From positions 26,259-60,367 of the forward strand of contig NZKY01000051.1 in assembly GCA_002694035.1 (NCBI GenBank): a stretch of 34,109 bases of DNA. The letters are read 5' to 3'. Below, in pieces: positions 11,589 through 31,359 of this stretch. The position numbers were made by a program, and so were the translations under genes. Source of the stretch: Opitutia bacterium. GTDB taxonomy: Bacteria; Verrucomicrobiota; Verrucomicrobiia; Opitutales; Seribacteraceae. Within the stretch, counting starts at the first letter, position 1; every line of letters begins with the position of its first letter. The notes below the pieces were generated by a model. It saw only the letters and a program-made list of their open reading frames with translations, was not told where the DNA came from and did no database searches.

Positions 11589-11590
11589 AA

Positions 11591-11619
11591 ATAATACTTT
11601 AGCTTTGTAGTTGTATCAA
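11591..11619 (-). promoter_or_regulatory. strong candidate promoter for the glycosylphosphotransferase gene
   Basis: On the minus strand TTGATA (11619-11614) and TATTAT (11596-11591) each match the sigma70 boxes at five of six positions and are separated by exactly 17 bases. The -10 box ends only two bases before the first ATG. The predicted transcript start near 11585 would leave two or three bases before the second ATG at 11582. Confidence 0.5.
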
Positions 11620-11717
11620 GATTGTAATGATCACTTGTAAAATGCGAAATTGGTAAGTTGATTAAAATTGGCTCTTGCAAATTTCATTATTTTTTGAAAT
11701 GAATGAAAATCTAAGTT

Positions 11718-12224
11718 TTGCCCCCTTTAAATACAGATTCTTTTGTTAAAGACTCTCCCGATCGATTACTTGAATTAGAGTCGATTGATTTTTTTGTTCG
11801 ACTGATGGGAATTCTTGGTTTGCCCAGATCAGTAGGGGAAATTTATGGGTTGCTCTATTTTTCAGAAATTTCTTTAACTATGGATGTTATAGCTTCAAGA
11901 CTTGAAATTAGTATTGGTTCGGCAAGTCAAGGTTTAAGAACCCTCAAGTCACTCAAAGCAATTCGATCTACATATGTTCCTGGTGATAGAAGAGACCACT
12001 ACTCCGCGGAAACTGAATTTAAGAGGTTATTCTCGTCTTTTATCAAAGACGAAATTATGCCCCATCTCGAAAGTGCAAAAGATAGAATTCACAGGATGGA
12101 GAAAATACTTCAGCAAAATAAAAACAACAAAGACTTTCACCAAATAAGACTCGAAAAGCTAAAAAAACTTACCAAAACAGGAAGTAGACTTCTTCCTGCT
12201 CTTACTGGACTGCTGAAATTTTAA
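11718..12224 (+). CDS. GbsR/MarR-like winged-helix transcriptional regulator
   Basis: A 168-residue DNA-binding protein. The winged helix-turn-helix spans about residues 30-90 (GEIYGLLYFSEISLT then DVIASRLEISIGSASQGLRT). The wing with Pro-Gly-Asp-Arg-Arg follows, then a helical C-terminal dimer region. This fits the GbsR family better than classic MarR. In-frame ATGs upstream are closed by a TAA, so the TTG at 11718 is the earliest start. The stop overlaps the next ATG as TAATG, so the NusG paralogue is translationally coupled to it. The pairing suggests this regulator controls transcription of the polysaccharide locus; its ligand is unknown. Confidence 0.8.
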   Translation: MPPLNTDSFVKDSPDRLLELESIDFFVRLMGILGLPRSVGEIYGLLYFSEISLTMDVIASRLEISIGSASQGLRTLKSLKAIRSTYVPGDRRDHYSAETEFKRLFSSFIKDEIMPHLESAKDRIHRMEKILQQNKNNKDFHQIRLEKLKKLTKTGSRLLPALTGLLKF

Positions 12225-12769
12225 TGCAAAAAGAAGAGCTAAAAGACTGGTCAGTAGGATGGTATTGTCTAAGAGCAAAGCCGAGAATGGAAGTGCTTGC
12301 AGCTCAAACATTAAAAACATTGCCTGACATTGAAGTTTTCCTTCCCCGAACTATCAGACCAAGAAAAGATGGTTCATCTCCAGCACGGCCTCTTTTTCCA
12401 GGATATTTTTTTGCAAGGTTCGATCCTGTTATCCATCATCGAAATGTTCATTTTGCAAGAGGAGTTTCGTATGTCGTTAGAAGGGATGAAATTCCTGTAC
12501 ATGTTCCATCTCAGGTTATGATGGAACTTAAGCTAATCTCACCCAATGGAATTTTAGAAATTCCTGATAAACCACATTGTATTGGGGATAAAGTTAAAGC
12601 TATTGCCGGATTATTTAAAGGAGATGAAGGGATTGTCACTCAACTCATTCCAGCAAAAGAGAGAGTTAAAGTGCTTTTTGAAATTTTAGGCCGTCCGACC
12701 GAAGTGGAAATCAATGAACAATCCCTTGATTTTCCAAGTTCTCATCCAATTGGTACAGACACTGATTGA
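12224..12769 (+). CDS. RfaH/UpxY-like NusG paralogue (operon-specific antiterminator)
   Basis: It probably binds RNA polymerase at a specific DNA signal and suppresses pausing and termination in a long operon. The 181 residues have an NGN domain (about 12-105: WYCLRAKPRMEVLAAQTL, RPLFPGYFFARFDP, IHHRNVHFARGVSYVVR) and a KOW domain (about 119-168: GDKVKAIAGLFKGDEGIV). The middle of the NGN domain is strikingly like E. coli RfaH, including the PLFP.Y.F..FDP stretch and an I-H then RGVS pattern where RfaH places DNA-contact residues (His71 and Arg79 here). A general NusG would normally sit beside secE and rplK; this one opens a polysaccharide locus, and an ops-like element lies 54 bases after its stop. 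Confidence 0.88.
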   Translation: MQKEELKDWSVGWYCLRAKPRMEVLAAQTLKTLPDIEVFLPRTIRPRKDGSSPARPLFPGYFFARFDPVIHHRNVHFARGVSYVVRRDEIPVHVPSQVMMELKLISPNGILEIPDKPHCIGDKVKAIAGLFKGDEGIVTQLIPAKERVKVLFEILGRPTEVEINEQSLDFPSSHPIGTDTD

Positions 12770-12794
12770 ACTTACTTTTGAATTTGATAATAAT
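12766..12794 (+). promoter_or_regulatory. possible promoter upstream of the ops element
   Basis: TTGAAC (12766-12771) and AATAAT (12789-12794) are separated by 17 bases and match the consensus boxes at four and five of six positions. Transcription would start near 12801, placing the ops element about 20-35 bases into the leader. The -35 box overlaps the stop of the NusG-like gene. The call is tentative, and read-through from the regulator genes is an alternative. Confidence 0.3.
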
Positions 12795-12816
12795 TGGCTT
12801 TGTGACACAGCAAACG

Positions 12817-12834
12817 GCCAAGGGCGGTAGCTTG
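12817..12834 (+). promoter_or_regulatory. ops / JUMPstart element
   Basis: The segment GGCGGTAGCTTG (12823-12834) contains the complete conserved ops core GGCGGTAG and differs from the enterobacterial ops sequence at one of twelve positions. The preceding bases extend the match: GCCAAGGGCGGTAGCTT (12817-12833) agrees with the 3' half of the JUMPstart consensus, recalled from memory, at 15 of 17 positions. In E. coli the element pauses RNA polymerase and recruits RfaH to the non-template strand. Here it sits in an 82-base leader between an RfaH-like gene and the downstream plus-strand genes. I saw no second copy in the window. Confidence 0.75.
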
Positions 12835-12851
12835 TAAAATGAATATTTTTA

Positions 12852-14636
12852 ATGTTTAATTTAAATTTAAGATATTTGCTTTCCGTTTGTGCACTTTTTT
12901 TCGTTTGCATCTTATTTTTTCTATCTGAGTTTCTTATTCCACATCTTAAAAAATGGAAATCAAACAAATTGCTTAATTTGTCAAAAGTATATCATGATGA
13001 ATCAATAAGTACAGAATCTGACCTGCTAGCCGAAGGAGTAAGAAAAGCTAGAATCGCTAGCCTCTTGGACCCCAATAATGATTCTACAAGAGAAAACTTT
13101 TTATCTTTATTATTCCGTTTCAAACCATCGCAAGCACTTCAAAAATGGTCCCAAATTGCTAATTCGAATAAAGCAAACGATGAGGAAAGAGCAATTCTTC
13201 TTAAAAGAAGCATTAGTACTCTAAAAAATGATTTATTGATGACAACCGAAAGAAAAATTGCTGGAGAAATAGCCATTGAACAATTAAACGAACTATTAAA
13301 AAATAACACCTGGTTGGATTCTCCCGACAACTCACTCATTGCATCAGAACTATTTGCCGAAACAGGAGATACCAACAGAGCTTACAAATTAACTGAAAAT
13401 TCTATTGAGAATCATCCGGCTCATGCAGAAAGTTTGTTTCTTTTTTCCAGACTCACGGTACATCTAAACCGTAAGGACAAGCTTCCCCTACTCGGCAGCA
13501 GACTAGCTAAACTGGCCACAAGAAAAGGTAAAACCGGCGTGGATGCTATTCGACACATGACCTTATTACATCTGTTGAATCCGCTTTCGGAAAGCAGTCT
13601 CAAAAAATGCCTTGAATTACTTCGTTCCAATACTAAATCTGAACCAATAGATTTCATGCGCATATATGCATTACAGTATGAATCAGCGGAAGAGATAAAA
13701 AAGAAGCAAATTATAGAATCTTGTGCGGACCAATTTGACCTTGAGCAAAACAAAGAATTGATGATTTTCGCGCGCTGGCTTGGCAGACTTGGTGCTTTCG
13801 AACAAATGACTGAATACATTTCTGCAAATAGAGCCAAAGTCGAGGAAGAACTATTCAAACTTCGAATGAATGCGTTAGCTCAAATTAAAGATTTAGAGTC
13901 TATTCATTTTGAAGTAAACAACGCACCAATAATACCAGAGAGGTGGAGACTTGTTATAGAATCGAGAGCTTTCGCTATGGAAGGAAATTATAAAGAAGCA
14001 ATCAGAGTACTAAACAGGCTTCTGCCTGTCCTCGGGAATGACCCAAGACTAGTCCGTAGTGTATGCGAATATCTTGAAAAATCGAATGATGTAAAGAGTC
14101 TTACCCATGTACTTTCAAAATTGGCTTTACAACCAATTCATGAAAGTTTTGCTTTAAAAAAATTAATGCAATTTCAGAGCAAATCTGCGTCACTTGAAGA
14201 ATTACTTGGATGGATGTCAAAACTTTCAAAGCTTCACGGCAAAGATCCTTTTTTTAGTCAAAGTTACTTGTATTTTGAATTACTTGACCCATTTCTAGCC
14301 ACCCCATCAAGGAAATTAAGTTCATTACTTGAAGAAGCAAAGACAAATTTACTCTCTGAACCATCCGCTCAAAACAGAATTTCCCTTGCTCTTGCCGAGT
14401 TAAGAAATGAATCCCCAGATAAAGCTTTGGTTGCACTCGGAAACCTAAAAAATTGGAGAAATTGGCAACAAACTCGTCCTGCGTGGTCCTTCATAGCCTC
14501 AATGGTCTTCCATTTAAATCATGATTCCGAAAAATCAATAATCATTAGGAAATCGATTGATTTTGAAAATATTGATCGAGCTGAAAAGGAAAGTCTTGTC
14601 AGCTTATTTCCAAATAAATTTCCAAATTCCGAATAA
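12852..14636 (+). CDS. membrane-anchored helical-repeat (TPR-like) protein
   Basis: I do not recognise a named family. The 594-residue protein has one N-terminal membrane segment (about 8-30, with no lipobox) and then a long, entirely helical region of degenerate TPR-like pairs, for example ELFAETGDTNRAYKLTENSI and AFAMEGNYKEAIRVLNRLLP. The repeats probably lie outside the membrane as a protein-interaction scaffold. It starts 17 bases after the ops element and ends 14 bases before the exosortase gene, so it is likely an accessory of the sorting or polysaccharide machinery. It is far shorter than the PEP-CTERM-associated TPR lipoprotein, which I therefore do not assign. The ATG has no Shine-Dalgarno. 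Confidence 0.75.
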   Translation: MFNLNLRYLLSVCALFFVCILFFLSEFLIPHLKKWKSNKLLNLSKVYHDESISTESDLLAEGVRKARIASLLDPNNDSTRENFLSLLFRFKPSQALQKWSQIANSNKANDEERAILLKRSISTLKNDLLMTTERKIAGEIAIEQLNELLKNNTWLDSPDNSLIASELFAETGDTNRAYKLTENSIENHPAHAESLFLFSRLTVHLNRKDKLPLLGSRLAKLATRKGKTGVDAIRHMTLLHLLNPLSESSLKKCLELLRSNTKSEPIDFMRIYALQYESAEEIKKKQIIESCADQFDLEQNKELMIFARWLGRLGAFEQMTEYISANRAKVEEELFKLRMNALAQIKDLESIHFEVNNAPIIPERWRLVIESRAFAMEGNYKEAIRVLNRLLPVLGNDPRLVRSVCEYLEKSNDVKSLTHVLSKLALQPIHESFALKKLMQFQSKSASLEELLGWMSKLSKLHGKDPFFSQSYLYFELLDPFLATPSRKLSSLLEEAKTNLLSEPSAQNRISLALAELRNESPDKALVALGNLKNWRNWQQTRPAWSFIASMVFHLNHDSEKSIIIRKSIDFENIDRAEKESLVSLFPNKFPNSE

Positions 14637-14650: not shown

Positions 14651-16297
14651 TTGTTAAATAAATTACAGACTGGATTGGGCCTTACTAGCATATGCATGAT
14701 TTGGGCAATGTTAATAATTCAGCTCTCTGTTACTTGGCTAGTAAGCGAACAGTATTCACATGGTTTTCTAATTCCCCTGTTGTCTTTTTATCTTCTGCTG
14801 AAAAGCCCTTCAAATAAAATAATCGAGGGCAAGACTTCTTTTTTACAGGGAAAAGCTTGGATCTTCCTTGGAATACCCCTGATGATTTCTTTAATTCCTA
14901 TTTGGATCATCACTGGTGCAAACTCTGACTGGAGGCTTATTAATGTAGTTCTATTTGTAATAGTTTTTCTATTAACACTAATTCCATTTTATGATCATGG
15001 CGGATGGATTAATATCAAATATAAAATATTCCCGCTTCTATTCTTTGCTGTGGCAATTCCATGGCCTCTGGCTACAGATCTTCAATTAACTCAATGGTTT
15101 CAAATTAGAGTCTCTTCCATTATTGTGGATATTCTCCAACTCATGGAACATGAGGCAAGCCTTCAAGGCACAGTGATTGATGTAGGTGTTTTTGGTCAAA
15201 TAGGAATTGATCAAGCATGCAGCGGAATTAATGGCCTCCAAGCTTCTTTTGTGGTTTCTCTTTTCTTTGGTGCTTATTACCGGTTTAAAATAGTAAACCG
15301 AATTATTCTTTTTATATCTGGAGGTATTATTGCAATCATACTAAATTTATTGAGAGCCTTCTCACTATCATTTATAAAAGTTAAAGGTAAAGGTCACCTT
15401 CTGGAACAAACCCTATTTTCAATTGGAACATGGGACTTTCCTTCACTTCATGATTTGGTAGGTTGGATTGAAACCTCAATTATTTTTGTTTTGATTTTTT
15501 TACTAGCACGCTCCGCTAGAGGAGGACTATTTCTAAAAATTCTCGGTAACGAACCAAACAACTGGAAAAACTTATCAACATTTCCATCCGTAATTTACAG
15601 CATAATGCTGATACTTTTCACAAGTATTTCTTTTGGGCTCTCCGAATATCATTTTCGAAGTCAAGAGAAAGAGTTCTTAAACATGCCAAAATTGAAATTA
15701 AACTTGAATAATGGATTGATATTTAAGGAGAAAATTCAAATTTCAAATCAGATCGCCGCACAACTACACTTTGAAAGTGCCCATTCTTATCAATGGCAAA
15801 AGGAAACTTCCTCTCGCTTCAACCCATACACTCAAAAAAGAAGTATCAACCCAACGAAAGAATACTGGCAAGCGTTCGAAGCAAACTGGGATTCAGGGGG
15901 TGCATGCACTGCTGTGCTGTCAACCCACTCACCGGAATCTTGCCTACCTTTAACTGGACTTACTCAGATTAATCCACCTATCGGACAAAAGCCTATTCTT
16001 ATACCTATCAAGATAGAAAATCGAGAAGTTCTTTTCGAAGCATATGAATTCTCTCGGAACTATCGCAAACTATTTGTTTTCAGATGCTTTTGGCCACACA
16101 AACTTGCTCCGGGACAAACCAATCTCTTTCCCCGCGGCGGATACAACTTTGAAGGCCGAATAAGATCCGCCTTACGTGGTCAACGTAATGTTGGAGGCAC
16201 CATGCTAGCACTTGCTCTCGCCAATGTAGATTCTTTGGATTCTGCTATTGTTAAACTTCAATCTCTTTCAAATCAAAGATTGAGCTTATCCGATTAG
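14651..16297 (+). CDS. exosortase with C-terminal EpsI-like domain
   Basis: A membrane transpeptidase-like enzyme predicted to process proteins with a C-terminal PEP-CTERM-type tail and link them to the envelope. The 548 residues start with about eight membrane helices (to about 290). The exosortase catalytic set is present: Cys190 in IDQACSGINGLQ, Arg235 in LNLLRAFSLSF, and His267 in SLHDLVGW. From about residue 305 one more membrane helix leads into an EpsI-like soluble domain with HSPESCLPLTGL, resembling the SPE-C motif of EpsI; in many bacteria EpsI is a separate gene. The TTG at 14651 is the chosen start. No PEP-CTERM substrate is encoded in the window. Confidence 0.87.
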   Translation: MLNKLQTGLGLTSICMIWAMLIIQLSVTWLVSEQYSHGFLIPLLSFYLLLKSPSNKIIEGKTSFLQGKAWIFLGIPLMISLIPIWIITGANSDWRLINVVLFVIVFLLTLIPFYDHGGWINIKYKIFPLLFFAVAIPWPLATDLQLTQWFQIRVSSIIVDILQLMEHEASLQGTVIDVGVFGQIGIDQACSGINGLQASFVVSLFFGAYYRFKIVNRIILFISGGIIAIILNLLRAFSLSFIKVKGKGHLLEQTLFSIGTWDFPSLHDLVGWIETSIIFVLIFLLARSARGGLFLKILGNEPNNWKNLSTFPSVIYSIMLILFTSISFGLSEYHFRSQEKEFLNMPKLKLNLNNGLIFKEKIQISNQIAAQLHFESAHSYQWQKETSSRFNPYTQKRSINPTKEYWQAFEANWDSGGACTAVLSTHSPESCLPLTGLTQINPPIGQKPILIPIKIENREVLFEAYEFSRNYRKLFVFRCFWPHKLAPGQTNLFPRGGYNFEGRIRSALRGQRNVGGTMLALALANVDSLDSAIVKLQSLSNQRLSLSD

Positions 16298-16443: not shown

Positions 16444-17298
16444 ATTAATAATAAAATCTACCTAAACCTTGGATGTGGTTCTCAAATAAACCCAGAATGG
16501 ATAAATCTTGATGTTAATCCTTACATCGAAGGAGTTAAAACCTGGAAAGCATCTGATGGAATTCCTGCAGAGGATAATTCAATTGATGTTATTTACCATT
16601 CACACTTCTTAGAGCACCTCTCTTATGAAGATGGTAAAAAACTTACTGAAGATTGTTTTCGTAGTCTTAAAAAAGGTGGTATTTTAAGGGTAGCAATTCC
16701 TGATTTAGAAGAAATTTGCAAAGAATATCTATCATCTTTGAAAAGGATCGATAATAAAGAGTTAAATTCAAGTCTAGATGCAGAATGGATGCGTTTAGAG
16801 TTAATTGATCAAATGACAAGAACTTATTCTGGTGGAAAAATGCTAGATTTTCTTAAATCCAATCCGAAAAACGAAGATTTTGTAATCTCAAGGTGTGGTG
16901 AACAGGTAAAATCCATTATTGAGGCTAATTCGAAAAAGAAGGAATTTATAATGCCCGAAAAAAAAATCCCTCTCCATCTCAAATTTAAGCTGCAAATTAA
17001 AAAACTTCTTAAATCCTCTTGGTTTAGAGACCAAATTATCAAACTAATATTACGAAAATCTGAATTAGATGCACTTCTAATTGGGCGTTTTCACCTCTGT
17101 GGAGAAAAGCATAAATACATGTACGATCGAATATCTTTAGCAAATTTTTTGAAAGAAATCGGATTTGTATGTATTACCAGACAAACTCATATAACCAGCC
17201 TAATATCAAACTGGAATAATTATTTACTTGATAACACTATATCAGGAAGTCCAAGAAAACCTGATTCACTTTACATGGAAGCAATCAAACCTAGCTAA
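16444..17298 (+). CDS. SAM-dependent methyltransferase, probable ATT start
   Basis: A class I methyltransferase of 284 residues. Motif I is YLNLGCGS at residues 6-13, followed by the WINLDVNP acidic-loop region and HFLEHLSYEDGKK and LKKGGILRVAIPDLEE, as in the small sugar or lipid methyltransferases of glycan loci. The frame opens after a TAA at 16435. It contains no ATG, GTG or TTG until TTG 16738, which would delete the whole SAM-binding half. The ATT at 16444 gives the N-terminus MNNKIYLNLGCG, just right for the family. Either ATT is the start or the gene has lost its start codon. The reading frame is otherwise intact. The epimerase gene follows after 13 bases. Confidence 0.75.
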   Translation: MNNKIYLNLGCGSQINPEWINLDVNPYIEGVKTWKASDGIPAEDNSIDVIYHSHFLEHLSYEDGKKLTEDCFRSLKKGGILRVAIPDLEEICKEYLSSLKRIDNKELNSSLDAEWMRLELIDQMTRTYSGGKMLDFLKSNPKNEDFVISRCGEQVKSIIEANSKKKEFIMPEKKIPLHLKFKLQIKKLLKSSWFRDQIIKLILRKSELDALLIGRFHLCGEKHKYMYDRISLANFLKEIGFVCITRQTHITSLISNWNNYLLDNTISGSPRKPDSLYMEAIKPS

Positions 17299-17311
17299 AA
17301 TCTTTAAAATC

Positions 17312-18316
17312 ATGAATTGGAATAATAAAAAAGTACTCATAACAGGAGGAGCATCCTTCATTGGTTCTCATCTTTCAGAACAGTTGGTTAAGAAAGGAGC
17401 TTTGGTTCGGGTTGCAGAGAATTTCTCTAGTGGAGAAAGAAAACATCTGGATAATGTAGATTGTGAAATAATCGAGGGAAACCTCCTCGATTCTGACTTT
17501 TGCAAACGAGCTACCAAAGACATTGAAGTCCTCTTTCATCTAGCTGCAGATCATGGAGGGCGTGGCTACATTGACTCTCACCAAGTCGAATGCTCGACCA
17601 ATATGATTCTGGATGGACAGGTCTTTAGGCATGCTCACCAAAATGGAGTAGAAAAGATCGTATTTGCTTCTTCTGGTTGTGTGTATCCGACCTCAGAACA
17701 GATGGATGTTACTAAAGAAGTCTTTCTCCATGAAAAAATGGTGAAGCCTCCTTATGAAGCAGATGATCTTTATGGATGGGCTAAATTAATGGCCGAATTA
17801 AGCCTCAAGGCATACCATCAGCAATTAGATCTAAAGACTGCTTCTTGTAGGTATTTTACTGTCTACGGCCCAAGATGTACGGAGAACCACGCAGTTATGG
17901 CAATGATCGCAAGGGGTTTCCTTAAGCTAGACCCCTTTGAGGTTTGGGGAAATGGTGAACAAATTCGCAACTGGACATATGTTGATGACATTGTATCAGG
18001 GACAATTGCAGTTGCAGAAAAAATACACGATGGAACTTCTATCAATTTGGGAACGATGGAGAGGATAAAAGTAAAAGAATGTGCAAAACAAGTTATTGAT
18101 ACATTAAATCCAGGTGCAACCATCAAACTTCTCACAAATAAACCAACAGGACCACTCAATCGAGTTGCCAGTAATGCTTTGGCTAAGGAACTTCTCGGTT
18201 GGTCTCCTCAAACTAGATTTTCTGACGGCCTGAAAAAAACTATCGATTGGTATGTTGCCACCAAAAGTAAAGATCAAGCAAACGCTGATTTGAAGACGAA
18301 ACTAGTCGGTAGATAA
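17312..18316 (+). CDS. NAD-dependent nucleotide-sugar epimerase (extended SDR)
   Basis: It likely epimerises or otherwise converts a nucleotide sugar for the polysaccharide. The 334-residue protein has the dinucleotide-binding TGGASFIGSHL at 11-21, the FHLAADHGGRGYI stretch that recalls GDP-mannose 3,5-epimerases, Ser120/121 in FASSGCVYP, and the catalytic pair Tyr154 and Lys158 in LYGWAKLMAE. The exact substrate is uncertain; GDP-mannose- or UDP-sugar-linked reactions are both possible. A TTG at 17228 would add 28 residues that overlap the previous gene and are not family-like, so the ATG at 17312 is used. The Wzm-type permease gene begins 10 bases after its stop. Confidence 0.88.
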   Translation: MNWNNKKVLITGGASFIGSHLSEQLVKKGALVRVAENFSSGERKHLDNVDCEIIEGNLLDSDFCKRATKDIEVLFHLAADHGGRGYIDSHQVECSTNMILDGQVFRHAHQNGVEKIVFASSGCVYPTSEQMDVTKEVFLHEKMVKPPYEADDLYGWAKLMAELSLKAYHQQLDLKTASCRYFTVYGPRCTENHAVMAMIARGFLKLDPFEVWGNGEQIRNWTYVDDIVSGTIAVAEKIHDGTSINLGTMERIKVKECAKQVIDTLNPGATIKLLTNKPTGPLNRVASNALAKELLGWSPQTRFSDGLKKTIDWYVATKSKDQANADLKTKLVGR

Positions 18317-18326
18317 ATATATCATT

Positions 18327-19178
18327 TTGCAAAAACAAAGCATAACTGTTCTAAAACCATCCGCAGGCTGGACGGGGTTTGATTTTGCCGGGATCTGGCA
18401 GTACCGAGACTTGCTTTACTTACTTGTAAGGCGGGATTTTCTAGCTCAGTACAAACAAACTATTTTAGGCCCTGCTTGGTTTGTACTTCAACCTTTGTTT
18501 CTTACTGTCGTTTTTACGCTAATATTTGGAAAATTTGCTCAAATTCCAACCGAAGGACTCCCTCCCCTACTCTTTTATAACTCCGGTTTGATCATCTGGA
18601 GTTACTTCTCTCATTGCTTTACAGGAAATGCCTCCGTGTTTACTGCAAATGCTGGGATTTATCAAAAAGTATATTATCCGAGACTCATTAATCCACTAGC
18701 AAACTGCGTTTCCGGACTATTAGGCTTTTCCGTACAAGCCCTTTTTTTTGTAGGTTATTTTTGCGTTTATAAAATTTTTATTCCAACAGCTTCACACTTT
18801 GAGATGACTTCGGCCATGTTGACTATTCCTTTGCTTATTCCTTTGGTTGCATCCCTCGGTCTCGGTATGGGCTTATGGATGTCTGTACTTACTGCCAAGT
18901 ACCGCGACTTCAATCAAATCACTGGATTCCTTGCACAGGCACTGATGTACGCAACGCCAATCATATACCCTTTATCGGAAGTTCCAGAACAGTATAGATT
19001 CTGGGCATCACTCAACCCTATGGCCTCAGTTGTTGAATCCTTCCGCTTTGCACTCCTTGGAAAAGGCTCCTTTTCATTTCATCTATTGTGTTACTCAACA
19101 ATAGTTGCTGTGTTACTTCTGCTTTCGGGAATATACTTTTTTAAAAGAACCGAGAGGCGAGTGGTCGATTACTTGTAA
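18327..19178 (+). CDS. ABC-2 type polysaccharide export permease (Wzm-like)
   Basis: The membrane half of an ABC exporter for lipid-linked O-antigen or capsule-type polysaccharide. The 283 residues have the N-terminal amphipathic region with YRDLLYLLVRRDFLAQYKQT, then LGPAWFVLQPLF and five to six membrane helices, and end in the typical FFKRTERRVVDYL. There is no early ATG; the TTG at 18327 gives a normal-length N-terminus. Its stop is three bases before the ATG of the ATPase gene, so the pair is certainly co-transcribed. Its presence says this locus uses the ABC-dependent rather than the Wzy-dependent export route. Confidence 0.92.
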   Translation: MQKQSITVLKPSAGWTGFDFAGIWQYRDLLYLLVRRDFLAQYKQTILGPAWFVLQPLFLTVVFTLIFGKFAQIPTEGLPPLLFYNSGLIIWSYFSHCFTGNASVFTANAGIYQKVYYPRLINPLANCVSGLLGFSVQALFFVGYFCVYKIFIPTASHFEMTSAMLTIPLLIPLVASLGLGMGLWMSVLTAKYRDFNQITGFLAQALMYATPIIYPLSEVPEQYRFWASLNPMASVVESFRFALLGKGSFSFHLLCYSTIVAVLLLLSGIYFFKRTERRVVDYL

Positions 19179-19181
19179 ATT

Positions 19182-20462
19182 ATGAAAGAATCTCTTGTTA
19201 TCCAAGCAAACAACCTTTCCAAAAAATATAGGTTGGGTACAATTGGGATGACTAGTCTGCGCGAAGACCTCAGCCGTTGGTGGACTAGGAGTAAAAATGG
19301 GATCCCAAAACATGGTTTCGACCAAGCAGGTATTGACCCCACCCGAATGATCAACGACCATGAATTCTGGGCCTTACACGATCTGAATTTTGAAATCACT
19401 CGGGGAGAAGTTGTTGGTCTGATTGGGGCAAATGGATCTGGAAAATCAACGCTTTTGAAAATTTTATCCAGAATTACTGAACCTTCTGAAGGCAAGGTAA
19501 AGGTCAAAGGCAAAGTAGCCTCATTACTTGAAGTCGGAACTGGCTTTCACCCCGAACTGACTGGGCGTGAGAATGTTTTTGTCAACGGGGCAATTCTTGG
19601 GATGACCAGACGAGAAGTGGACAAAAAATTTGATGAAATTGTTGATTTTGCCGGAGTTGCCGACTTCATTGATACTCCAATCAAAAGATATTCCTCTGGA
19701 ATGACGGTACGCTTAGGCTTTGCTGTAGCGGCTCACCTAGAACCAGATATTCTGATTGTGGATGAAGTACTGGCAGTTGGCGACTTAAGATTCCAAAATC
19801 GTTGCATCAACCAAATGAAAAGCATAGCTGAATCTGGTAAAACCGTGCTTTTTGTAAGTCATCAAATGGCGACGGTCGAGAATTTATGTAAATCGGCTTT
19901 CCTACTCAACATGGGTCAAATCATATATTCAGGTAAAACATCCGATGTCATAAAGAAGTATCGCGAAGATATGGAGGAAAGTGCCAATTTACCAATTTCC
20001 CAAAGAATGATTCGGGAAGGAAGTGGTAAATGTAAATTGTCGGGGATTGAGTTTAGAAACGATCAGAATAAGGTTGTCGATTCTTTGATTTCTGGGAAAT
20101 CGGCTACCATAAAACTGTTTTTTGATATCTACGAAGAAATAACTGCCCCCATGAGCCTTAGCCTTGGCATATCAAACTCCACTCATGTAAGGATTGCTCA
20201 TTTATGTATGAAAACTTTTGGAAAATGGATTTTGCCTACATCACAAAAATCTTTCCAAGTAAACTTATCCCTTTCAAAACTTGAACTCAATCAGGGTAAA
20301 TATTATGTCACCTCTTTTTTGGATGATGAAAGTGGGCAAATAATTGACTGGGTAACTGATGCCTTCGTGATCAACGTATTGCAGTCTGATTTCTACGGTA
20401 CTGGAATGGTTCCTCCTACCAGCCAAAGTATTTTTTTAATGGATCATTCCTTTTCCTTTTGA
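19182..20462 (+). CDS. polysaccharide ABC exporter ATPase with C-terminal glycan-binding domain (Wzt-like)
   Basis: The ATPase that drives export through the Wzm-like permease. The ABC domain (about 5-245) carries Walker A GANGSGKST at 82-90, signature YSSGM at 170-174, and Walker B ILIVDEVLAVGD with the catalytic Glu195. The 426-residue length leaves a C-terminal beta-sandwich of about 150 residues (265-420), as in Wzt proteins that recognise the capped non-reducing end of the polymer. This implies that the exported glycan carries a terminal modification, and the methyltransferases downstream are natural candidates. The stop overlaps the next start as TTGA. Confidence 0.93.
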   Translation: MKESLVIQANNLSKKYRLGTIGMTSLREDLSRWWTRSKNGIPKHGFDQAGIDPTRMINDHEFWALHDLNFEITRGEVVGLIGANGSGKSTLLKILSRITEPSEGKVKVKGKVASLLEVGTGFHPELTGRENVFVNGAILGMTRREVDKKFDEIVDFAGVADFIDTPIKRYSSGMTVRLGFAVAAHLEPDILIVDEVLAVGDLRFQNRCINQMKSIAESGKTVLFVSHQMATVENLCKSAFLLNMGQIIYSGKTSDVIKKYREDMEESANLPISQRMIREGSGKCKLSGIEFRNDQNKVVDSLISGKSATIKLFFDIYEEITAPMSLSLGISNSTHVRIAHLCMKTFGKWILPTSQKSFQVNLSLSKLELNQGKYYVTSFLDDESGQIIDWVTDAFVINVLQSDFYGTGMVPPTSQSIFLMDHSFSF

Positions 20463-21118
20463 ATTCAGTAATATCTGGCCTTAAAAAATTCAAACACGAC
20501 TTGGAATTTGTTCAGAGTAATTCTCAAGAATTTTCATTATGGCTCCACATCGAATTGTGGATAAAGGATTTTCTTTTTAAAAAAAGTCCACTTGATGCCG
20601 GTTTCCCTTGGATAAACTATTCCGTAATCCAATTCTTACATCACTATATCAATCCAAAAATGCAAATATTGGAATTTGGAGCTGGAGGGTCCAGTATTTT
20701 TTTTCTAAATCGAGGAGTCAATTTATTTTCAATTGAACATGAAGAGATATGGATTGATAAAGTTAAAAAAAGAGTTCCTTTTAGCGAATTTGCGCGATGG
20801 TCTCCTAATTTAGTTTTACCTAGAGAAAGAAACTTCTCTATTCCTAATGTCGATGATTATCTTGCTCCCCTGAAGAAGATTTCAGATGCGTCTATTGACA
20901 TAGTATTCGTCGACGGAAGACATCGCGTCGCATCCATTATGCGATCAATGAATTTGCTAAAAGATGGCGGGATTATCATTTTGGATAATTCTGACAGAAC
21001 TCATTATGAAGATGCTTTTAAACTTTTAGAAGATTGGCCATTACAAAACACCGCATGTATTACAAATGCTTCTGAGTTTGTCACTCCTGCTGCTATTTGG
21101 AAAAAACCTATTTCTTGA
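20459..21118 (+). CDS. class I SAM-dependent methyltransferase
   Basis: The 219 residues contain motif I ILEFGAGGSS at 70-79, an acidic post-I segment FSIEHEEIWIDKV, and IDIVFVDGRHRV followed by LKDGGIIILDNSDR, the usual strand 4 and 5 motifs. The fold is clear, the target is not. The start is a TTG whose last two bases are part of the preceding TGA (TTGA overlap), so it is translationally coupled to the Wzt-like gene. Its position right after the exporter ATPase with a cap-recognition domain makes it a candidate for the terminal methyl cap, by analogy with known ABC-exported O-antigens. That is inference only. Confidence 0.8.
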   Translation: MNSVISGLKKFKHDLEFVQSNSQEFSLWLHIELWIKDFLFKKSPLDAGFPWINYSVIQFLHHYINPKMQILEFGAGGSSIFFLNRGVNLFSIEHEEIWIDKVKKRVPFSEFARWSPNLVLPRERNFSIPNVDDYLAPLKKISDASIDIVFVDGRHRVASIMRSMNLLKDGGIIILDNSDRTHYEDAFKLLEDWPLQNTACITNASEFVTPAAIWKKPIS

Positions 21119-21987
21119 AAAAGAAAATAATCATTCGGCAAGAATATGGACAATTGGGGAACATACTTTTTCGCTTATCTAATGCATTGGCATACGCTGT
21201 TGAATATGATTACAAAATTGAAGATTACACCCTCGCGTTTTGCAATTATCATGATGGCAGTTCAAACATTAGATTTTTTGAAAATTACTTTCCATTCCAT
21301 TTTTTTGAGTATCCCCGTCCAAAGTCGCGATTGATTAATAGAATAAAATGGAAATTTCGAGATAAGACTTATCGGAAGGTAAAGATTTTAGAAAACTTCG
21401 ACCCTAGCTTTGATCTAAATGATTTACCGCCTAAATCCAATTACGAACTTAAGGGATTTCATTTCACTGCAAAAAACTTGGTCAGGAAACATCGTGAAAA
21501 AATCTGCCAAATTCTAGGCTTTCGGAGTTCCCTTAAAGCTCCAATAAGTTCCTTAATTAACAAAGCCAAATCAAAATATGATGTTCTTCTAGGAGTTCAT
21601 ATCCGTGAAAATGATTTCAAAGATTTTTACAATGGAAAATATTTTGTGCCTGTTAAACATTATCTTAAATTAATCGATCAATTCAAAAAACTAAAATCTG
21701 AAGAATCGCTTGGAGTTCTAATCTGTTCTGACAGTACGAAAATATTAAGAGAGGTTAAAGAGCAACATCCTGATTTCATCTTCCCCAATGGCTCTGTTGC
21801 ACAAGACATGTATGCTTTATCTCAATGTAACTATTTAATCGGTCCGCAAGCCACTACTTTCAGTACTTGGTCAACTTATCTCGGAAATATTCCACTTCTT
21901 CAAGTCACCAAAGATTCAAAGTTTGAATCTTTGAATCTTTTCAAGGTGGTTTCACGATTAGAACCCTTTAACCCCAGCCCTTCGTAA
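21115..21987 (+). CDS. GT11-like alpha-1,2-fucosyltransferase family protein
   Basis: A probable inverting glycosyltransferase of 290 residues. The start has YGQLGNILFRLSNALA (11-26), like the GQLGN-type opening of GT11 fucosyltransferases. LLGVHIREND at 158-167 matches their HxRxxD motif, with Asn in place of Gly. DMYALSQCNYLIGPQATTFS near the end fits the family's donor-site motif. Divergence is enough that a different sugar is possible. The start at 21115 is a TTG in a TTGA overlap with the previous stop, matching the junction just upstream; an in-frame GTG or TTG further up is not needed. No GDP-fucose synthesis genes are in the window. Confidence 0.72.
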   Translation: MKKKIIIRQEYGQLGNILFRLSNALAYAVEYDYKIEDYTLAFCNYHDGSSNIRFFENYFPFHFFEYPRPKSRLINRIKWKFRDKTYRKVKILENFDPSFDLNDLPPKSNYELKGFHFTAKNLVRKHREKICQILGFRSSLKAPISSLINKAKSKYDVLLGVHIRENDFKDFYNGKYFVPVKHYLKLIDQFKKLKSEESLGVLICSDSTKILREVKEQHPDFIFPNGSVAQDMYALSQCNYLIGPQATTFSTWSTYLGNIPLLQVTKDSKFESLNLFKVVSRLEPFNPSPS

Positions 21988-21988
21988 A

Positions 21989-23155
21989 TTGAATAAATAT
22001 TCCCCAAGCAGACTCAAAAAAATTTCAGTTTTACTTTGTTCCTTGACGCTTTCATTGGGTATTGCTGAGGTTTGTATGAGGTTCTTTTATGACGCTCACT
22101 TTGTCATCTCAGGTTGGAACGGACAATATCTTGGAGTTGATGAAATAAATCATCATGGTTCCAGGGGTAGAAAAATATCCTTTGAACAAACAAAAAAACC
22201 TAAGGTTTTATTACTTGGAGACTCACAAGTGGTTGCAAGTGCTTCAAAATTAGAGGAAATGCCTGAATCTCAATTGGAAAGGATCCTTGAAAACAGAATT
22301 TCATGCACTTCCCTCGCGGCAGGAGGCTGGGGGCAAGATCAACAACTTCTTAACTTAAAACGTTTCTTCCATACTCAAAAAGCGGATCTTGTAGCCCTAT
22401 GGTTCACTCCTATGAATGACATTGCAAACAATTTGTTCCCGACTCATTTCCCAGAAAATGGTTGGGCGAAGCCGACTTTTTGGCTTGAAGAAGACTTTCT
22501 TACCGGCCCCAACGAGAGACAAAACTCCCTCATATATGCGACGCCGAGAATTAGGATATTAGAACCTTTCAAACTTTTGTATGATCGGCCCTTTATTTTT
22601 GATCGCGATCAAGAATGGGAAAGAAAAATACTCCCAGAAAACGATCAATCTATCACCCATAATCCGCCAGAAACCGAGATCAATTCCTTCATCGATAGGT
22701 TAGATATCAATTCCTCGGACCACTGGTTTTATAAATATGAAAATTTTGAAAATGGGAAAAACAGTTTTTCTCTTTGGATAGACAAAGTTAGCCCAAGGAT
22801 GGAATATGGATTAAAACTCACAAATAAACTTCTTCATGAAATCAATGAAGTATGCAATGCAAACAACTCAAAGTTATTGATTTTTTGGACGGAATTTCAA
22901 CCCGGATTTAATGAATTCCCCAGTAGGCAGTTCAAACAACCCTTCGAATACTTTCGAGTTAAAGAAAAAATCTACCGCTTTTCCCATGATGCATATTCAG
23001 CAAACATGAAGAAAATCATGGAGGGACTTTCAGTTTTTCCAATTTCAATCAAAATGGAAAAATGGTGGCGAAACAATCAAGATTCACACTTGAACACTAT
23101 TGCAAACAATCAAGTTATGGCTGAATTAGCACCGATTATAACATCGATGCTTTAA
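21989..23155 (+). CDS. SGNH-hydrolase-type esterase/acyltransferase, membrane-anchored
   Basis: The 388-residue protein has an N-terminal membrane segment (about 10-29) and then a GDSL/SGNH fold. The nucleophile block is VLLLGDSQVV at 73-82, with Ser79. The oxyanion Gly region is AAGGWGQDQQ, and the terminal Asp-His pair is in QDSHLN (Asp365, His367). In glycan loci such proteins commonly add or remove O-acetyl groups outside the cytoplasmic membrane, which is the likely role here. The start is a TTG one base after the preceding stop. The distance between the second block and the DxH pair is longer than in small esterases, leaving an unassigned middle region. Confidence 0.75.
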   Translation: MNKYSPSRLKKISVLLCSLTLSLGIAEVCMRFFYDAHFVISGWNGQYLGVDEINHHGSRGRKISFEQTKKPKVLLLGDSQVVASASKLEEMPESQLERILENRISCTSLAAGGWGQDQQLLNLKRFFHTQKADLVALWFTPMNDIANNLFPTHFPENGWAKPTFWLEEDFLTGPNERQNSLIYATPRIRILEPFKLLYDRPFIFDRDQEWERKILPENDQSITHNPPETEINSFIDRLDINSSDHWFYKYENFENGKNSFSLWIDKVSPRMEYGLKLTNKLLHEINEVCNANNSKLLIFWTEFQPGFNEFPSRQFKQPFEYFRVKEKIYRFSHDAYSANMKKIMEGLSVFPISIKMEKWWRNNQDSHLNTIANNQVMAELAPIITSML

Positions 23156-23164
23156 TTTAAAATT

Positions 23165-24379
23165 TTGAGAATAGCATTCCTTACATCGATTTATCCAAAG
23201 CACGCTGAGGAAATTTACAAACAAAACCCCAAACTTTCTAAACAAACTTCTGATGAACAAATGGAATTCATCAGATGGCATGCACTTTCTTCCTATGTGA
23301 GATGGTTTGAATTGCTTGAAAAATTAGGATTCAAAACATGTCAATTCAATCGAAATGTGCCTGAGATATCGTATGCTTGGGCAAGAGAGAATCATTTTAA
23401 TCCGTCTTCAAATGATCCAGTTTTAGAAATAGGAAAAGAGAAAATTCGTAGATTTCAACCTAATATAATATTTTGCTTTGCACCTACACTATATGTGGGA
23501 AATCGTTTTCTTGATGAGGTTTCAGGTGAGATAAAACCCAAAGTGAAACTAATCGCGTGGTACGGAGCGAATGTCGGGGATGAGAATATGTTCAATCGAT
23601 TCGACCTAACTTTATCAAACTCAAAACATTTAGTTAATCGTCTCAGGAAAAAAGGGATTTCTGCAGAATGGCTACAACATTCATTCGATCCAATTATTTT
23701 AGAAAAAATTTCTTTACCCAATACAAGAAAAAACAAAATGGCATTTTTTGGAAATCTTGATTTAGCGACCCCTGACTTTAAATCACGTACAGAACTACTA
23801 GAGGAGCTTACATCAAAAAATCGATATTTCGATATTTTTGGAGATAGTTACACTCCCAAGGTTAAAGAAAGATTTAAGCATAGAACAATTAGATATAGGC
23901 ATTCTATTGCTTCGAAAGTTTCAAAATACTGGAAGAATTCCAAAATTATGAATTGGTCTAATGCAAATAATTTACCTAAAAGTCCTTGGTTATTGCCTAC
24001 AGAATTCGCAAAAAAAATCAACAAACCAAAGTTTGGCAATGAAATGCTCCAAGAATTGTGTAAATATCAAATCGGTTTCAATTATCATAACCAATTTACT
24101 GGAAATTATGCATGTAATATGCGTCTTTTCGAAAATACAGGTTTAGGTTGCGCACTCCTTACTGATAACAAAATGGACATAAATGAATACTTTGAAAATG
24201 AGAAAGAAGTACTAACTTATAATAATAAAAATGATGCAATCGAGAAAATGAATTTCCTTCTTAACAACCCAGATTATTCAAAAAGGTTAGGCAAAAAAGC
24301 TCAGGTCAAATGCCTGAGTTCTCACAATACAAATAAAATTTTAAAAATCCTAAAAGATTATTTGATAAAGACAATTTAA
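23165..24379 (+). CDS. CgeB-like glycosyltransferase (GT4-type fold)
   Basis: The 404 residues open with the Rossmann strand MRIAFLTSIYPKHAEEIYK. Mid-protein segments LIAWYGANVGDENMFNRFD, LTLSNSKHLVNRLRKKGI and AEWLQHSFDP are typical of CgeB/DUF3880-type transferases. The C-terminal GT4 domain has the conserved loop MRLFENTGLGCALLTD with the donor-contact Glu, and ends in repeated helices around NNPDYSKRLGKKAQ. A retaining GT-B transferase acting at the cytoplasmic face is expected; the sugar is unknown. The TTG start follows the previous stop by nine bases. Confidence 0.82.
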   Translation: MRIAFLTSIYPKHAEEIYKQNPKLSKQTSDEQMEFIRWHALSSYVRWFELLEKLGFKTCQFNRNVPEISYAWARENHFNPSSNDPVLEIGKEKIRRFQPNIIFCFAPTLYVGNRFLDEVSGEIKPKVKLIAWYGANVGDENMFNRFDLTLSNSKHLVNRLRKKGISAEWLQHSFDPIILEKISLPNTRKNKMAFFGNLDLATPDFKSRTELLEELTSKNRYFDIFGDSYTPKVKERFKHRTIRYRHSIASKVSKYWKNSKIMNWSNANNLPKSPWLLPTEFAKKINKPKFGNEMLQELCKYQIGFNYHNQFTGNYACNMRLFENTGLGCALLTDNKMDINEYFENEKEVLTYNNKNDAIEKMNFLLNNPDYSKRLGKKAQVKCLSSHNTNKILKILKDYLIKTI

Positions 24380-24381
24380 TT

Positions 24382-25746
24382 ATGATAGCACCTCTTCAAT
24401 TCAATAAACTACCAAAATGGAAAATTTTTATACTTCTGTATATATTCAATTTATCCAAAAATTTAATGGAATCTAAATTTTCATCATTTTCGTTCATCTT
24501 ATTTCGTGTATGCTTTTGGATCGCTCCTCATTGGGATGATTTATGGTTAAATTATTTAAAATTACTTTACAAGAAGTCAAAATTCAGAAAAGCTGCACTG
24601 CTGTATAAAAAGTCGATATACTTAAGCCCAACTTTTTCCACTGTTCACAAACTTGGTGAATTTATATCTAAAAGAGGAAACTTAAATGATAGTTTCCACC
24701 GCGAATTCATAAATCTTATCAAAGATAATGAACTGAGAACTATGGTATTCTCCTTATGCAAATCAAAAGAATTATATCATCCATCAAAGTTTTGGCTATA
24801 TCATCTTGTTTTTAATATTATACAAATTGAACTGAACGGTATTGAAAATTTCAAGAGGTCAGTAAACAAAAACTATTTTGGATGGTCTCATCACGAGGAT
24901 ATTATTTCCCAAATTGAAACGATACTTAGCAATTTTACTGTAAATGAAAGTGAAATTTTTAACAATATTGACAAAAAGGTTTTAAGCACTAATCAAATGA
25001 AGGAAGATCTGACAGATGATGGATGGAGAGACTATGTCAGGTTGGTAATTCTTCTCTATAAATTTTCGTCATCTAAGGATGATGAAAACTTATTCTCTAG
25101 CGTTAAAGAGTCAACACTAGGTAATCCAATTTTAGTTGATATTGATGAAGCAAAAATTAGCCAAGATTTACCAAACACCATCTTTGAAATTAACACTTTT
25201 ACAAAATATTTGAAAAATGATGAACGTAAAAAATTAAATGTTATTGAACTAGGTGCTGGTCATGGAAGAATCGGTCACACAATGTTGCAAAAGTATACAA
25301 ACATGAAATATACTATCATTGACATACCTCCTGCACTTTTTATTTCACAATGGTATCTCTCCAATTCATTCGAAGATAAAAAAGTGTTCAAATTTAGGGA
25401 TTTCGATGATTGGGATAGTGTAAAAGATGATTTTGAAACTTCCGATATAAGGTTCCTTCTCCCGCACCAAGTTGAGATGTTACCAGATAAATACTTCAAC
25501 TTATTTGTAAATATAAGTTCTATGGGTGAAATGGTCAAAGATCAGATAGAAAATTGGTTCTTCCACATCGATAGATGCACTGAAGGGATTTTCTTTTTGA
25601 AGCAATATTCAGACTTAGAAAATAGTTTTGATTCTATAAATATTTCAAAATCTGATTATCCGGCATCAAGCAAATGGCAAACGCTTAGTGATAAGACTAA
25701 CCCTCTTTTCTCCTCATTTTTTGAAACGGTATATAGAATAAATTAA
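24382..25746 (+). CDS. putative sugar O-methyltransferase with helical N-terminal region
   Basis: The 454-residue protein has a helical N-terminal half that includes one TPR-like hairpin (about 55-90). A methyltransferase domain follows, with motif I NVIELGAGHGRIG at 286-298, the post-I TIIDIPPALF and FNLFVNISSMGEM. This C-terminal arrangement is that of the family annotated as putative sugar O-methyltransferase in glycan clusters. The ATG lies two bases after the previous stop. The gene and its right neighbour look richer in A+T than the exporter genes. Its stop overlaps the proposed ATT start of the next gene. Confidence 0.8.
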   Translation: MIAPLQFNKLPKWKIFILLYIFNLSKNLMESKFSSFSFILFRVCFWIAPHWDDLWLNYLKLLYKKSKFRKAALLYKKSIYLSPTFSTVHKLGEFISKRGNLNDSFHREFINLIKDNELRTMVFSLCKSKELYHPSKFWLYHLVFNIIQIELNGIENFKRSVNKNYFGWSHHEDIISQIETILSNFTVNESEIFNNIDKKVLSTNQMKEDLTDDGWRDYVRLVILLYKFSSSKDDENLFSSVKESTLGNPILVDIDEAKISQDLPNTIFEINTFTKYLKNDERKKLNVIELGAGHGRIGHTMLQKYTNMKYTIIDIPPALFISQWYLSNSFEDKKVFKFRDFDDWDSVKDDFETSDIRFLLPHQVEMLPDKYFNLFVNISSMGEMVKDQIENWFFHIDRCTEGIFFLKQYSDLENSFDSINISKSDYPASSKWQTLSDKTNPLFSSFFETVYRIN

Positions 25747-27058
25747 AAAGAACAGAATAGCTATATTATTTGAAGAAGAGTTTCTTGGTGTTTATCCAAG
25801 TTTAATTAATGCTATTAGAATATTATCTCAAAAAAATTTTGCGATCGATATTTACACAGTGGAGCGGGAAAACAGTTTTCCACTTCCACCTCAATTCAAT
25901 AAAAATGTAAAGATTAGATCTATTAAGCAGTTCTTAAACTACAACAGAAATAATTTTGTAATAAATACACATAAAGATTCTCATTATACAGAAAATAAAT
26001 CAAATTGGATTAAGTCAATAATACCAGAATACATTAAAACCAATTTCAGATTTTTAAGAGATTTATACAAAGTAAATATTGAGGCTTTAGATTCTCAAAT
26101 TATGTGGCTTTATGACAAGCTACGATTCATGTTTTTCTGCATTTCGTATCATTGTTACTTTAGGTACGAAATAATTATATCAATTGATAATATTGGTCTT
26201 GTAACATCAAAATTCTTAAACTTTTTAAAAAAATCTGAAATTTATTATTGGTCCCTTGAAATTGACACAAATAAAAGTAATCTTTTTGTTTATAGGTTAT
26301 TCGAAGTCTTATACACTAGTTGTCTTTCTTCAACACGCGAAATAATTATCCAAGAAAATTCGAGGCTAAAAGTTTTGTCTAACCATTATTCGGTAGATTT
26401 TAATGGCAGAAATATTTATTTTATTCCCCACAGTCCGATCAATTCAAAAAAATTTTTAAACAGAAATTTTTTTAAACAAAAATTTAAATTTAGAGAAAAT
26501 AAAAAGATAATTTTACATGCTGGATGGATCCATGATGCGATGTGCGTCGATCAGTTAGCTTTAGTATCCAGATATTGGAAAAATAAATATCAGTTAGTAT
26601 TGCATGAAAGAGAAAAGCGATCAGCTGAAGAACCATTTATAAAACATATACATTCTTTAAGTGGTAAACGCTTGAAACTCTCTTTAGATCCAGTTTCTTT
26701 TGATAATATAGACGATGTTTTTTCATCTGCAGATATAGGAATTATTGCGTATGATAAAAGATATGGTGGTGGCAGAGAGAATGTATTCAAAGCTTCTGGT
26801 AAACTTGGTCAGTATCTTAAGTGTGGAGTTCCAGTTATTGCTCTCAATCTACCTGGTTATTCAGAATTATTTTCTAAATATAACTGCGGGTTAGTTTTTA
26901 ATCATTTTGGTGAAATTGAAAATTGTATAGATCAAATCTTTTCAAATTATCAATTTTACCGAGATGGTTGTTTTAAATGCTTCGAAGAGGAGTTTGATTT
27001 CTCGAAATATTTCAATCGGCTATTACTTTCAATAAGTAATCACTATAAAACAAATTAG
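25742..27058 (+). CDS. GT4-type glycosyltransferase, probable ATT start
   Basis: A GT-B fold transferase. The C-terminal half has KIILHAGWIHDAM (donor-domain strand), DVFSSADIGIIAYDK and ASGKLGQYLKCGVPVIALN, the family's donor-binding loop. In the same frame the DNA upstream of GTG 25859 encodes KKNRIAILFEEEFLGVYPSL, a typical first Rossmann strand that cannot be dispensed with. Between the in-frame TAA at 25739 and that GTG there is no ATG, GTG or TTG. The first codon is ATT 25742, overlapping the preceding TAA as ATTAA. Started there the protein has 438 residues, normal for the family. The region is very AT-rich. Confidence 0.75.
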   Translation: MKKNRIAILFEEEFLGVYPSLINAIRILSQKNFAIDIYTVERENSFPLPPQFNKNVKIRSIKQFLNYNRNNFVINTHKDSHYTENKSNWIKSIIPEYIKTNFRFLRDLYKVNIEALDSQIMWLYDKLRFMFFCISYHCYFRYEIIISIDNIGLVTSKFLNFLKKSEIYYWSLEIDTNKSNLFVYRLFEVLYTSCLSSTREIIIQENSRLKVLSNHYSVDFNGRNIYFIPHSPINSKKFLNRNFFKQKFKFRENKKIILHAGWIHDAMCVDQLALVSRYWKNKYQLVLHEREKRSAEEPFIKHIHSLSGKRLKLSLDPVSFDNIDDVFSSADIGIIAYDKRYGGGRENVFKASGKLGQYLKCGVPVIALNLPGYSELFSKYNCGLVFNHFGEIENCIDQIFSNYQFYRDGCFKCFEEEFDFSKYFNRLLLSISNHYKTN

Positions 27059-27083
27059 AGAATCTTTATAGTTTTAACATATC

Positions 27084-28249: not shown

Positions 28250-28253
28250 ATCA

Positions 28254-30471: not shown

Positions 30472-30472
30472 C

Positions 30473-31336: not shown

Positions 31337-31359
31337 AAATTAATCATCTGTTATCAACT

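Follow-up and report, generated by a model that had tools for sequence, protein, structure and literature searches.

An RfaH-like NusG paralogue paired with a JUMPstart-like ops site and an RNA hairpin in Verrucomicrobiota: a candidate cis-encoded antitermination module

Results

Gene order at the locus

The window is the whole 34,109-nucleotide stretch of DNA analyzed here, from an Opitutia bacterium whose genome assembly amounts to 2.88 Mb (93% complete). A co-directional array on its plus strand is headed by the gene of a GbsR/CudC-like winged-helix regulator (11718..12224), which scores 70 bits against NF047500 CudC (cut-off 218) and 14.5 bits against MarR_2 (cut-off 27); it is called GbsR-like here. 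The next gene, 12224..12769 on the plus strand, begins on the last base of the regulator gene and encodes an RfaH-like NusG paralogue of 181 amino acids with NGN and KOW domains (PF02357, 37.9 bits, cut-off 22.2; PF00467, 24.2 bits, cut-off 22.3). Downstream of it on the same strand are an RNA hairpin (12794..12821), seen in the minimum free energy structure of the window sequence, and the ops element GGCGGTAGCTTG (12823..12834); both the gene ending at 12769 and the element had been named in a first-pass annotation of this DNA and are confirmed by sequence, and the hairpin had not been mentioned there.

The first gene 3′ of ops (12852..14636, plus strand) has weak TPR matches (PF13428 TPR_14, 25.6 bits, cut-off 23.5) and is followed by an exosortase gene (14651..16297, plus strand; PF09721, 119.8 bits, and a TIGR04178 signature that exceeds its cut-off). 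The remainder of the co-directional glycan array (16738..34107, plus strand), assigned from the ORF list and profile matches, runs off the window and holds two epimerases, a Wzm/Wzt-type ABC exporter, glycosyltransferases, methyltransferases, a DegT aminotransferase, and some unmatched genes. There are 20 same-strand ORFs between ops and the window end; the gaps between them do not exceed 112 nt, apart from one of 440 nt before 16738.

That 440-nt gap extends from the exosortase gene to 16738, and the portion from 16738 has no Pfam match; a methyltransferase-like frame (LNLGCG recognized by eye) is open at about 16440-17298 on the plus strand, well upstream of the first ATG/GTG/TTG at 16738. 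On the minus strand, at 9394-11588, divergent genes for a sugar transferase (EPS/WcaJ type) and a WecG/TagA-type glycosyltransferase point away from the regulator pair.

Promoter-like sites at 11500-13000 number five, against 4.8 in shuffles. A promoter between the paralogue and the hairpin was considered and dropped, the interval having a single weak match (12766-12794) and the bases before the hairpin looking unconserved by eye in 28 loci. A check for Shine-Dalgarno-like stretches within 22 nt of the start came up empty for all 21 window genes examined, which makes the loss of such a stretch useless here as a sign of RfaH-type ribosome loading.

The ops element in its own genome

The ops core GGCGGTAG..T lies before polysaccharide genes at 12823-12834. 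The 17-mers CCAAGGGCGGTAGCTTG and CCAGGGGCGGTAGCGTG, from the window and the E. coli K-12 rfb JUMPstart, are identical at 15 of 17 positions, exactly the match claimed in the first-pass annotation. Against the Rfam JUMPstart model RF01707, the window scores 19.5 bits (match 12808-12834), under the gathering score of 35.

The longer string GGGCGGTAGCNTG, which contains GGCGGTAGCTTG, occurs once in the 2.88-Mb genome (reversed control, 0) and the shorter GGCGGTAGC three times (reversed control, 8); on reading, no similar hairpin was seen at the other two GGCGGTAGC places in this genome, and the covariance model built from the family hairpins (below) gives one match in it at E ≤ 1. Within the window, GGCGGTAG with at most one mismatch is found eight times, once exactly, against 4.46 expected; the core alone is therefore unremarkable, and it is the position and the conservation that are remarkable. 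A chance origin of the adjacency is rejected on the genome count, the family conservation, and the hairpin covariation.

Conservation of the pair across the family

The protein search covered 57 relatives, 46 of which match at E ≤ 0.001, housekeeping NusG included. A strong paralogue (E < 1e-50) is present in 28 of the 37 genomes of the window's family, and in all 28 the site lies 54-69 nt past the paralogue stop codon, so the conservation in sister genomes that the first-pass reading called for does hold. A GbsR-like homologue precedes the paralogue at every one of these 28 loci; the next gene, judged by its N terminus only, is window-like at 21, GDP-mannose-dehydratase-like at six, and unclear at one. 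Nine family genomes lack a strong paralogue: in six, nothing matches below E = 0.07, and the other three (G001, G009, and G030) carry a strong element; two of these three are 67-70% complete and the contig of the third ends at the element. The association of paralogue and element in the family table gives a Fisher p of 3.6e-5, with relatedness ignored. At two other loci of the order with a paralogue (L030 and L031), no site was found in the 420 nt read, and a protein-query search of a set of genome contigs found no relative.

An RNA hairpin directly before ops

In the window, 12794-12799 pairs with 12816-12821 to form a lower stem and 12800-12803 with 12810-12813 to form an upper stem, leaving a 2-nt 3′ bulge at 12814-12815 and a loop at 12804-12809; the G at 12822 is the single spacer base between hairpin and ops. 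As in a JUMPstart RNA, this stem-loop stands immediately ahead of GGGCGGUAGC. Throughout the family, the lower stem of the hairpin counts 4-6 bp and the upper stem 3-4 pairs or more, with a 2-nt bulge between them on the 3′ strand; one base (G0) separates stem and ops in 25 of 27 rows and none in L003 and L004, and half of the lower stem is broken in L022. Please note that the window hairpin by itself is no more stable than shuffles (z = −0.33).

In the 27 family sequences (from which L006, a near copy of L005, was left out, as from one other alignment), 93.3% of the cells are paired and six of the ten pairs are doubly changed, and none of 500 shuffles reached as high by any measure. The hairpin was first spotted by eye in the family loci and the model was then built from the same loci, so this family pair count is no independent test. 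A wider set of 76 rows (75 distinct), made up of family, trans, and class copies and the E. coli rfb site, is 93.8% paired, with eight of ten pairs and 54 cells doubly changed against 14.1 cells in shuffles; this alignment was fitted to the model, and the shuffles ignore relatedness. The covariation supports an RNA hairpin at 12794-12821.

An inverted repeat behind a regulator gene may also be viewed as a DNA operator of the GbsR-like protein, with the ops-like bases being part of the operator. Winged-helix regulators of the GbsR-like class are expected to bind inverted repeats, and a GbsR-like gene lies upstream of all 28 family cis copies, all 15 family trans copies, and 17 of the 23 non-family copies. 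However, columns 7 and 58 hold U-G in 60 of the 75 rows, which is a pair in RNA and a mismatch in a DNA palindrome and therefore speaks for RNA. The loop, variable in sequence, ranges from 4 to 11 nt over the 27 rows, unlike a fixed dimer site, and the ops half is outside the repeat, invariant, and at a constant distance from the hairpin in 25 of 27 rows. We consider the operator explanation very unlikely, and we retain the RNA hairpin.

Base conservation within ops

Seven positions of ops (2, 3, 4, 5, 7, 8, and 9) are invariant in all 27 cis and all 15 trans family copies, and position 11 is T in 40 of the 42; positions 1, 10, and 12 are variable. The position table was compiled without L114, L138, and L151, which were also omitted from one hairpin alignment. 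Position 6 is T in 39 of the 42 family copies, with two C in genus g3 and one N; in the 21 non-family copies it is C in 15, T in five, and A in one, departing from the E. coli ops in most of them.

In E. coli, changes at G4, G5, A7, and G8 abolish RfaH recruitment and changes at C3 and T6 weaken it, and these central bases are all dispensable for pausing (PMC5995543). The recruitment bases are kept in the family though dispensable for pausing, so the conservation fits reading by a protein. In the paused complex, ops forms a hairpin of its own with the pairs G2:C9 and C3:G8 (PMC11001881), and the bases that form these pairs are all retained in the family copies.

One non-family element (L154, G088:C17:473-6519; element at contig positions 4473-4519) has a normal hairpin, a changed core TGCGGACGC that deviates also at position 7, and an RfaH-like neighbor with L at R73; this element and gene are possibly a pair that diverged together. 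A rule by which base 6 follows residue 73 was looked for by eye and given up, no strict one being seen (R occurs with C in L140, and Q with T in L157 and L145).

The RfaH-like protein

Among six NusG-type NCBIfam models, the best match of the paralogue is TIGR01955 RfaH, at 82.8 bits and below its cut-off of 144.5; the others include UpxY NF033644 (48.5 bits, cut-off 100), LoaP NF033641 (37.2 bits, cut-off 125), and NusG (34.3 bits). All 20 relatives scanned match the UpxY, LoaP, and NusG models as well. A tree of 78 rows, from which L279 (wrong frame) and six other rows were left out and in which UpxY, LoaP, and TaA are absent, places the paralogue group apart from housekeeping NusG (100/100). 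E. coli RfaH groups with Verrucomicrobial rows (97/97), a placement that is unsure from long branches, and a single group of all Verrucomicrobial rows is weakly supported (60/23); with these long branches, the branching order among RfaH from E. coli, alphaproteobacteria, and Verrucomicrobiota is uncertain.

By MAFFT alignment with E. coli RfaH, the ops contacts H20, R23, Q24, and T72 are T, T, P, and A in the window, respectively, and K10 and R73 are kept. The family rows keep K10, mostly keep R73 (H or Q in some), and have replaced most of H20, R23, Q24, and T72, and the alphaproteobacterial L202-L205 retain H20, R23, Q24, T72, and R73. A local alignment shifts the first helix and pairs other residues than MAFFT does; the register depends on the aligner, so single-residue statements in the N-terminal region are uncertain. 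Most ops-reading residues being changed, DNA specificity of the E. coli type is not to be assumed. The proposal that this is a DNA-specific kind of NusG is accordingly favored by the tree and the best-scoring model and disfavored by these residues.

The position of E48, which is part of the autoinhibitory salt bridge in E. coli RfaH (PMC13015549), is R in the window, R, K, or Q in the family rows, and E in many other class rows. AlphaFold2 predicts the KOW domain as a four-strand β barrel with no helical hairpin (mean pLDDT 81.4), and the predictor may miss a second fold; the best RfaH matches in the PDB are polymerase-bound forms, the recruited form included.

The loss of most known ops-contact residues, together with a conserved and covarying RNA hairpin, brings to mind LoaP, which binds an RNA hairpin in its leader (PMC12691694): the paralogue could recognize the hairpin, GGCGGYAGC would then act mainly as a pause that gives time, and the non-template DNA would go unread. 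The LoaP element, however, is a UNCG-type hairpin (PMC12691694), and the loops here vary in sequence and length; ops positions 3-5, 7, and 8, invariant here, are dispensable for pausing in E. coli (PMC5995543); and the LoaP model score falls far short of its cut-off. LoaP-like recognition thus seems unlikely to us, and a protein that reads the ops bases remains our preferred reading.

Trans copies before wzz operons

At E ≤ 1e-6, the covariance model finds 44 copies in the 37 family genomes, of which 28 adjoin the paralogue, 15 lie elsewhere (in 14 genomes), and one is truncated at the end of its contig. With the single match in the window's own genome, this agrees with the first-pass expectation of few and well-placed copies. 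Each of the 15 trans copies lies behind a GbsR-like homologue, and the hairpin begins 23-35 nt past the stop codon of that gene in 14 of them; in the remaining one (G016), the GbsR-like frame is broken. At this last locus (L129/L297, G016:C11:65416-68115), the wzz frame is interrupted as well and the element is intact, as in a decaying copy or an assembly error near a contig end.

A single-query search finds a wzz gene downstream of all 15 family trans copies. The gene is present in 16 of 42 family genomes (G336-G340 were part of this search only and are outside the 37 used for the paralogue), the element stands before it in 17 of 17 loci scanned, and none of six family genomes lacking the paralogue (G003, G010, G011, G014, G017, and G027) has it. 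The trans locus that was scanned (L122) encodes Wzz (PF02706), a UDP-glucose/GDP-mannose dehydrogenase, an epimerase, and a Gfo/Idh/MocA oxidoreductase, all above Pfam cut-offs. Judged from these sequences, the factor is likely used in trans at a second, wzz glycan operon, because 15 copies in 14 family genomes precede such an operon. The window's own genome has no such wzz gene and no second element, so its factor probably serves its own operon only.

The short distance between the regulator stop and the hairpin in 14 of the 15 trans copies could put the hairpin within reach of ribosomes, as would be expected if the hairpin were a translation- or ligand-controlled attenuator, i.e., an RNA switch following the regulator gene with the RfaH-like gene as a mere neighbor. 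Against such a switch, no terminator-like site was found on the plus strand at 11500-13000 and nothing in the window matches Rfam at gathering score; furthermore, the element accompanies the RfaH-like gene over 286 class genomes, and ops is common to the E. coli JUMPstart. An attenuator is therefore extremely unlikely in our judgment, and the hairpin is best considered together with ops and the RfaH-like gene.

Distribution in the class and phylum

A hairpin-ops pattern scanned across 84,980 named genomes gave 32 hits, every one of them titled as Verrucomicrobiota or a member of it; Haloferula luteola and Cerasicoccus maritimus are among the carriers. Still, the pattern was derived from Verrucomicrobiota, so this gives its reach within the phylum and not its absence elsewhere. 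In 286 class genomes, the covariance model has a match at E ≤ 0.01 in 86 and at E ≤ 1e-4 in 33. An RfaH-like gene (E < 1e-30) is found in 31 of these 33 element genomes versus 101 of the 253 others (Fisher p = 1.1e-9, with thresholds picked after viewing the lists, relatedness ignored, and the two sets taken as the same 286 genomes). Both regulators lie upstream at 12 of the 23 non-family element loci, and the GbsR-like gene alone at five; the remaining six have neither. L138, which matches weakly (E = 3.8e-5) and belongs to a family genome, is outside these 23.

At 60 other class RfaH-like loci, hand-picked from about 130 genomes for family spread and excluding the 20 best element loci, NGCGGNAGC occurs within 350 nt downstream in 15 (2.61 expected), and 45 are without a linked site. 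One of the 15 (L269) looks like chance, and visual inspection shows no clear hairpin at two (L251 and L253). Universal among the family genomes seen, the adjacency is patchy across the class as a whole. Loci from seven class families (L214-L228, L258-L259, and L270; families f10, f13, f19, f21, f22, f38, and f29) are RfaH-like with no NGCGGNAGC in the 350 nt downstream, and such lineages may rely on a different recruitment signal or on a site farther away. At six RfaH relatives on alphaproteobacterial plasmids (L200-L205), the ops core has six matches in three loci, none just downstream on the strand of the gene, and the covariance model has no match better than E = 0.099.

Discussion

Comparison with known systems

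The RfaH-ops system has been characterized in detail in E. coli. There, as here, an NGN-KOW paralogue of NusG goes with a JUMPstart-type element (RF01707) in which the 3′ arm of a hairpin ends one base before GGCGGTAGC(G/T)T, ahead of surface-polysaccharide genes; in the Rfam model, the 5-bp stem of the E. coli K-12 rfb JUMPstart stops one base short of GGCGGUAGC, the same place as in our hairpin. The geometry is therefore shared; the hairpin of the Verrucomicrobiota is longer, carries a 2-nt bulge, and differs in sequence. The systems differ further in that the factor here is encoded beside its target and behind a GbsR-like gene, with most contact residues replaced and a KOW domain predicted as a β barrel. 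RF01707 passes its gathering score in one of 38 genomes (G015:C28, a family trans copy, 35.4 bits), using an arm upstream of the one in our model, and our covariance model gives 24.3 bits on the E. coli rfb site with a 5′ arm that differs from the Rfam stem; since the 5′ arms differ, these two cross-hits rest mainly on the common 3′ arm and ops.

UpxY of Bacteroides is likewise a specialized NusG paralogue in its own surface-polysaccharide operon; it acts, however, in the 5′ leader upstream of upxY (PMC7819879), whereas the site here is downstream of the paralogue. LoaP of Bacillus shares with our system a NusG paralogue for long operons and an RNA hairpin in the leader, and it reads its UNCG-type hairpin without a discernible pause (PMC12691694), in contrast to the variable loops with ops directly after them described here. 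A further comparison is with the monomorphic β-RfaH proteins, with a predicted β KOW, some ops-binding residues lost, and genes beside long operons (PMC13015549); these are active without ops in a reporter (PMC13015549), whereas our family strictly keeps the adjoining ops.

The JUMPstart stem-loop was noted by Weinberg and colleagues from gammaproteobacteria (PMC2864571). A survey assigns about 95% of RfaH proteins to Proteobacteria and reports RfaH in 23 of 117 phyla, Verrucomicrobiota not being named in its available sections (Wang et al. 2020, PMC7593976); with so many phyla reported, RfaH-like proteins in Verrucomicrobiota may be already known. A search of the open-licence literature gave no description of a Verrucomicrobial RfaH-ops pairing among the matches listed. 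What seems to be new, within a known kind of system, is the paired site with its hairpin, together with the regulon.

A model for the module

We propose that the pair is probably a cis-encoded RfaH-like antitermination module at a JUMPstart-like site, which would carry RNA polymerase through a long glycan operon. This proposal starts from the gene, the site, the covarying hairpin, and their conservation, placement, and association, and adds pausing, recruitment, and antitermination at ops by analogy with E. coli.

Transcription from at or before the GbsR-like gene would yield some regulator and RfaH-like factor and then meet the JUMPstart-like site. The base of the nascent RNA hairpin would then be 10-12 nt behind the RNA end (10 nt from C9, 12 nt from U11), a distance close to that in known hairpin pauses; the E. 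coli ops pause itself has been set apart from pauses of the RNA-hairpin type (PMC11001881). In the paused complex, the non-template strand would expose the ops bases (GGCGGYAGCNT), and the polymerase would load the RfaH-like protein made from the gene just upstream. The loaded factor would exclude NusG and Rho and take the polymerase across the glycan/exosortase operon (over 20 kb), and in relatives, the same site would gate the second glycan operon in trans. With regulators before the gate and structural genes after it, the cell could keep a basal amount of factor and make glycan conditionally.

The least certain points are the absence of a fold switch in the protein and its reading of ops through an altered surface. 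Somewhat doubtful, though possible, is the fuller picture of a non-switching factor and a two-signal pause (an exit-channel RNA hairpin plus a non-template ops hairpin), in which a changed surface would read the same G5 and stem, with T or C at position 6, and which would make up an ops-guided antitermination regulon outside the Proteobacteria. The interpretation put forward in the first-pass annotation is supported overall, its circuit remaining a prediction from sequence.

Implications

A JUMPstart-like site and hairpin tied to a NusG paralogue in many Verrucomicrobiota bear on the age of this code. If the fuller picture is true, the DNA code has outlasted the residues by which it was read. 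The first-pass annotation had offered a factor and code either very old or transferred together; an independent arrival at the same pause sequence may be a third option. The loci also supply natural variants, both of ops loops with C for T at position 6, a point that PMC11001881 leaves open, and of readers without most of the known contact residues. For the bacteria themselves, the module predicts which glycan operons would be controlled together in those Verrucomicrobiota that carry it.
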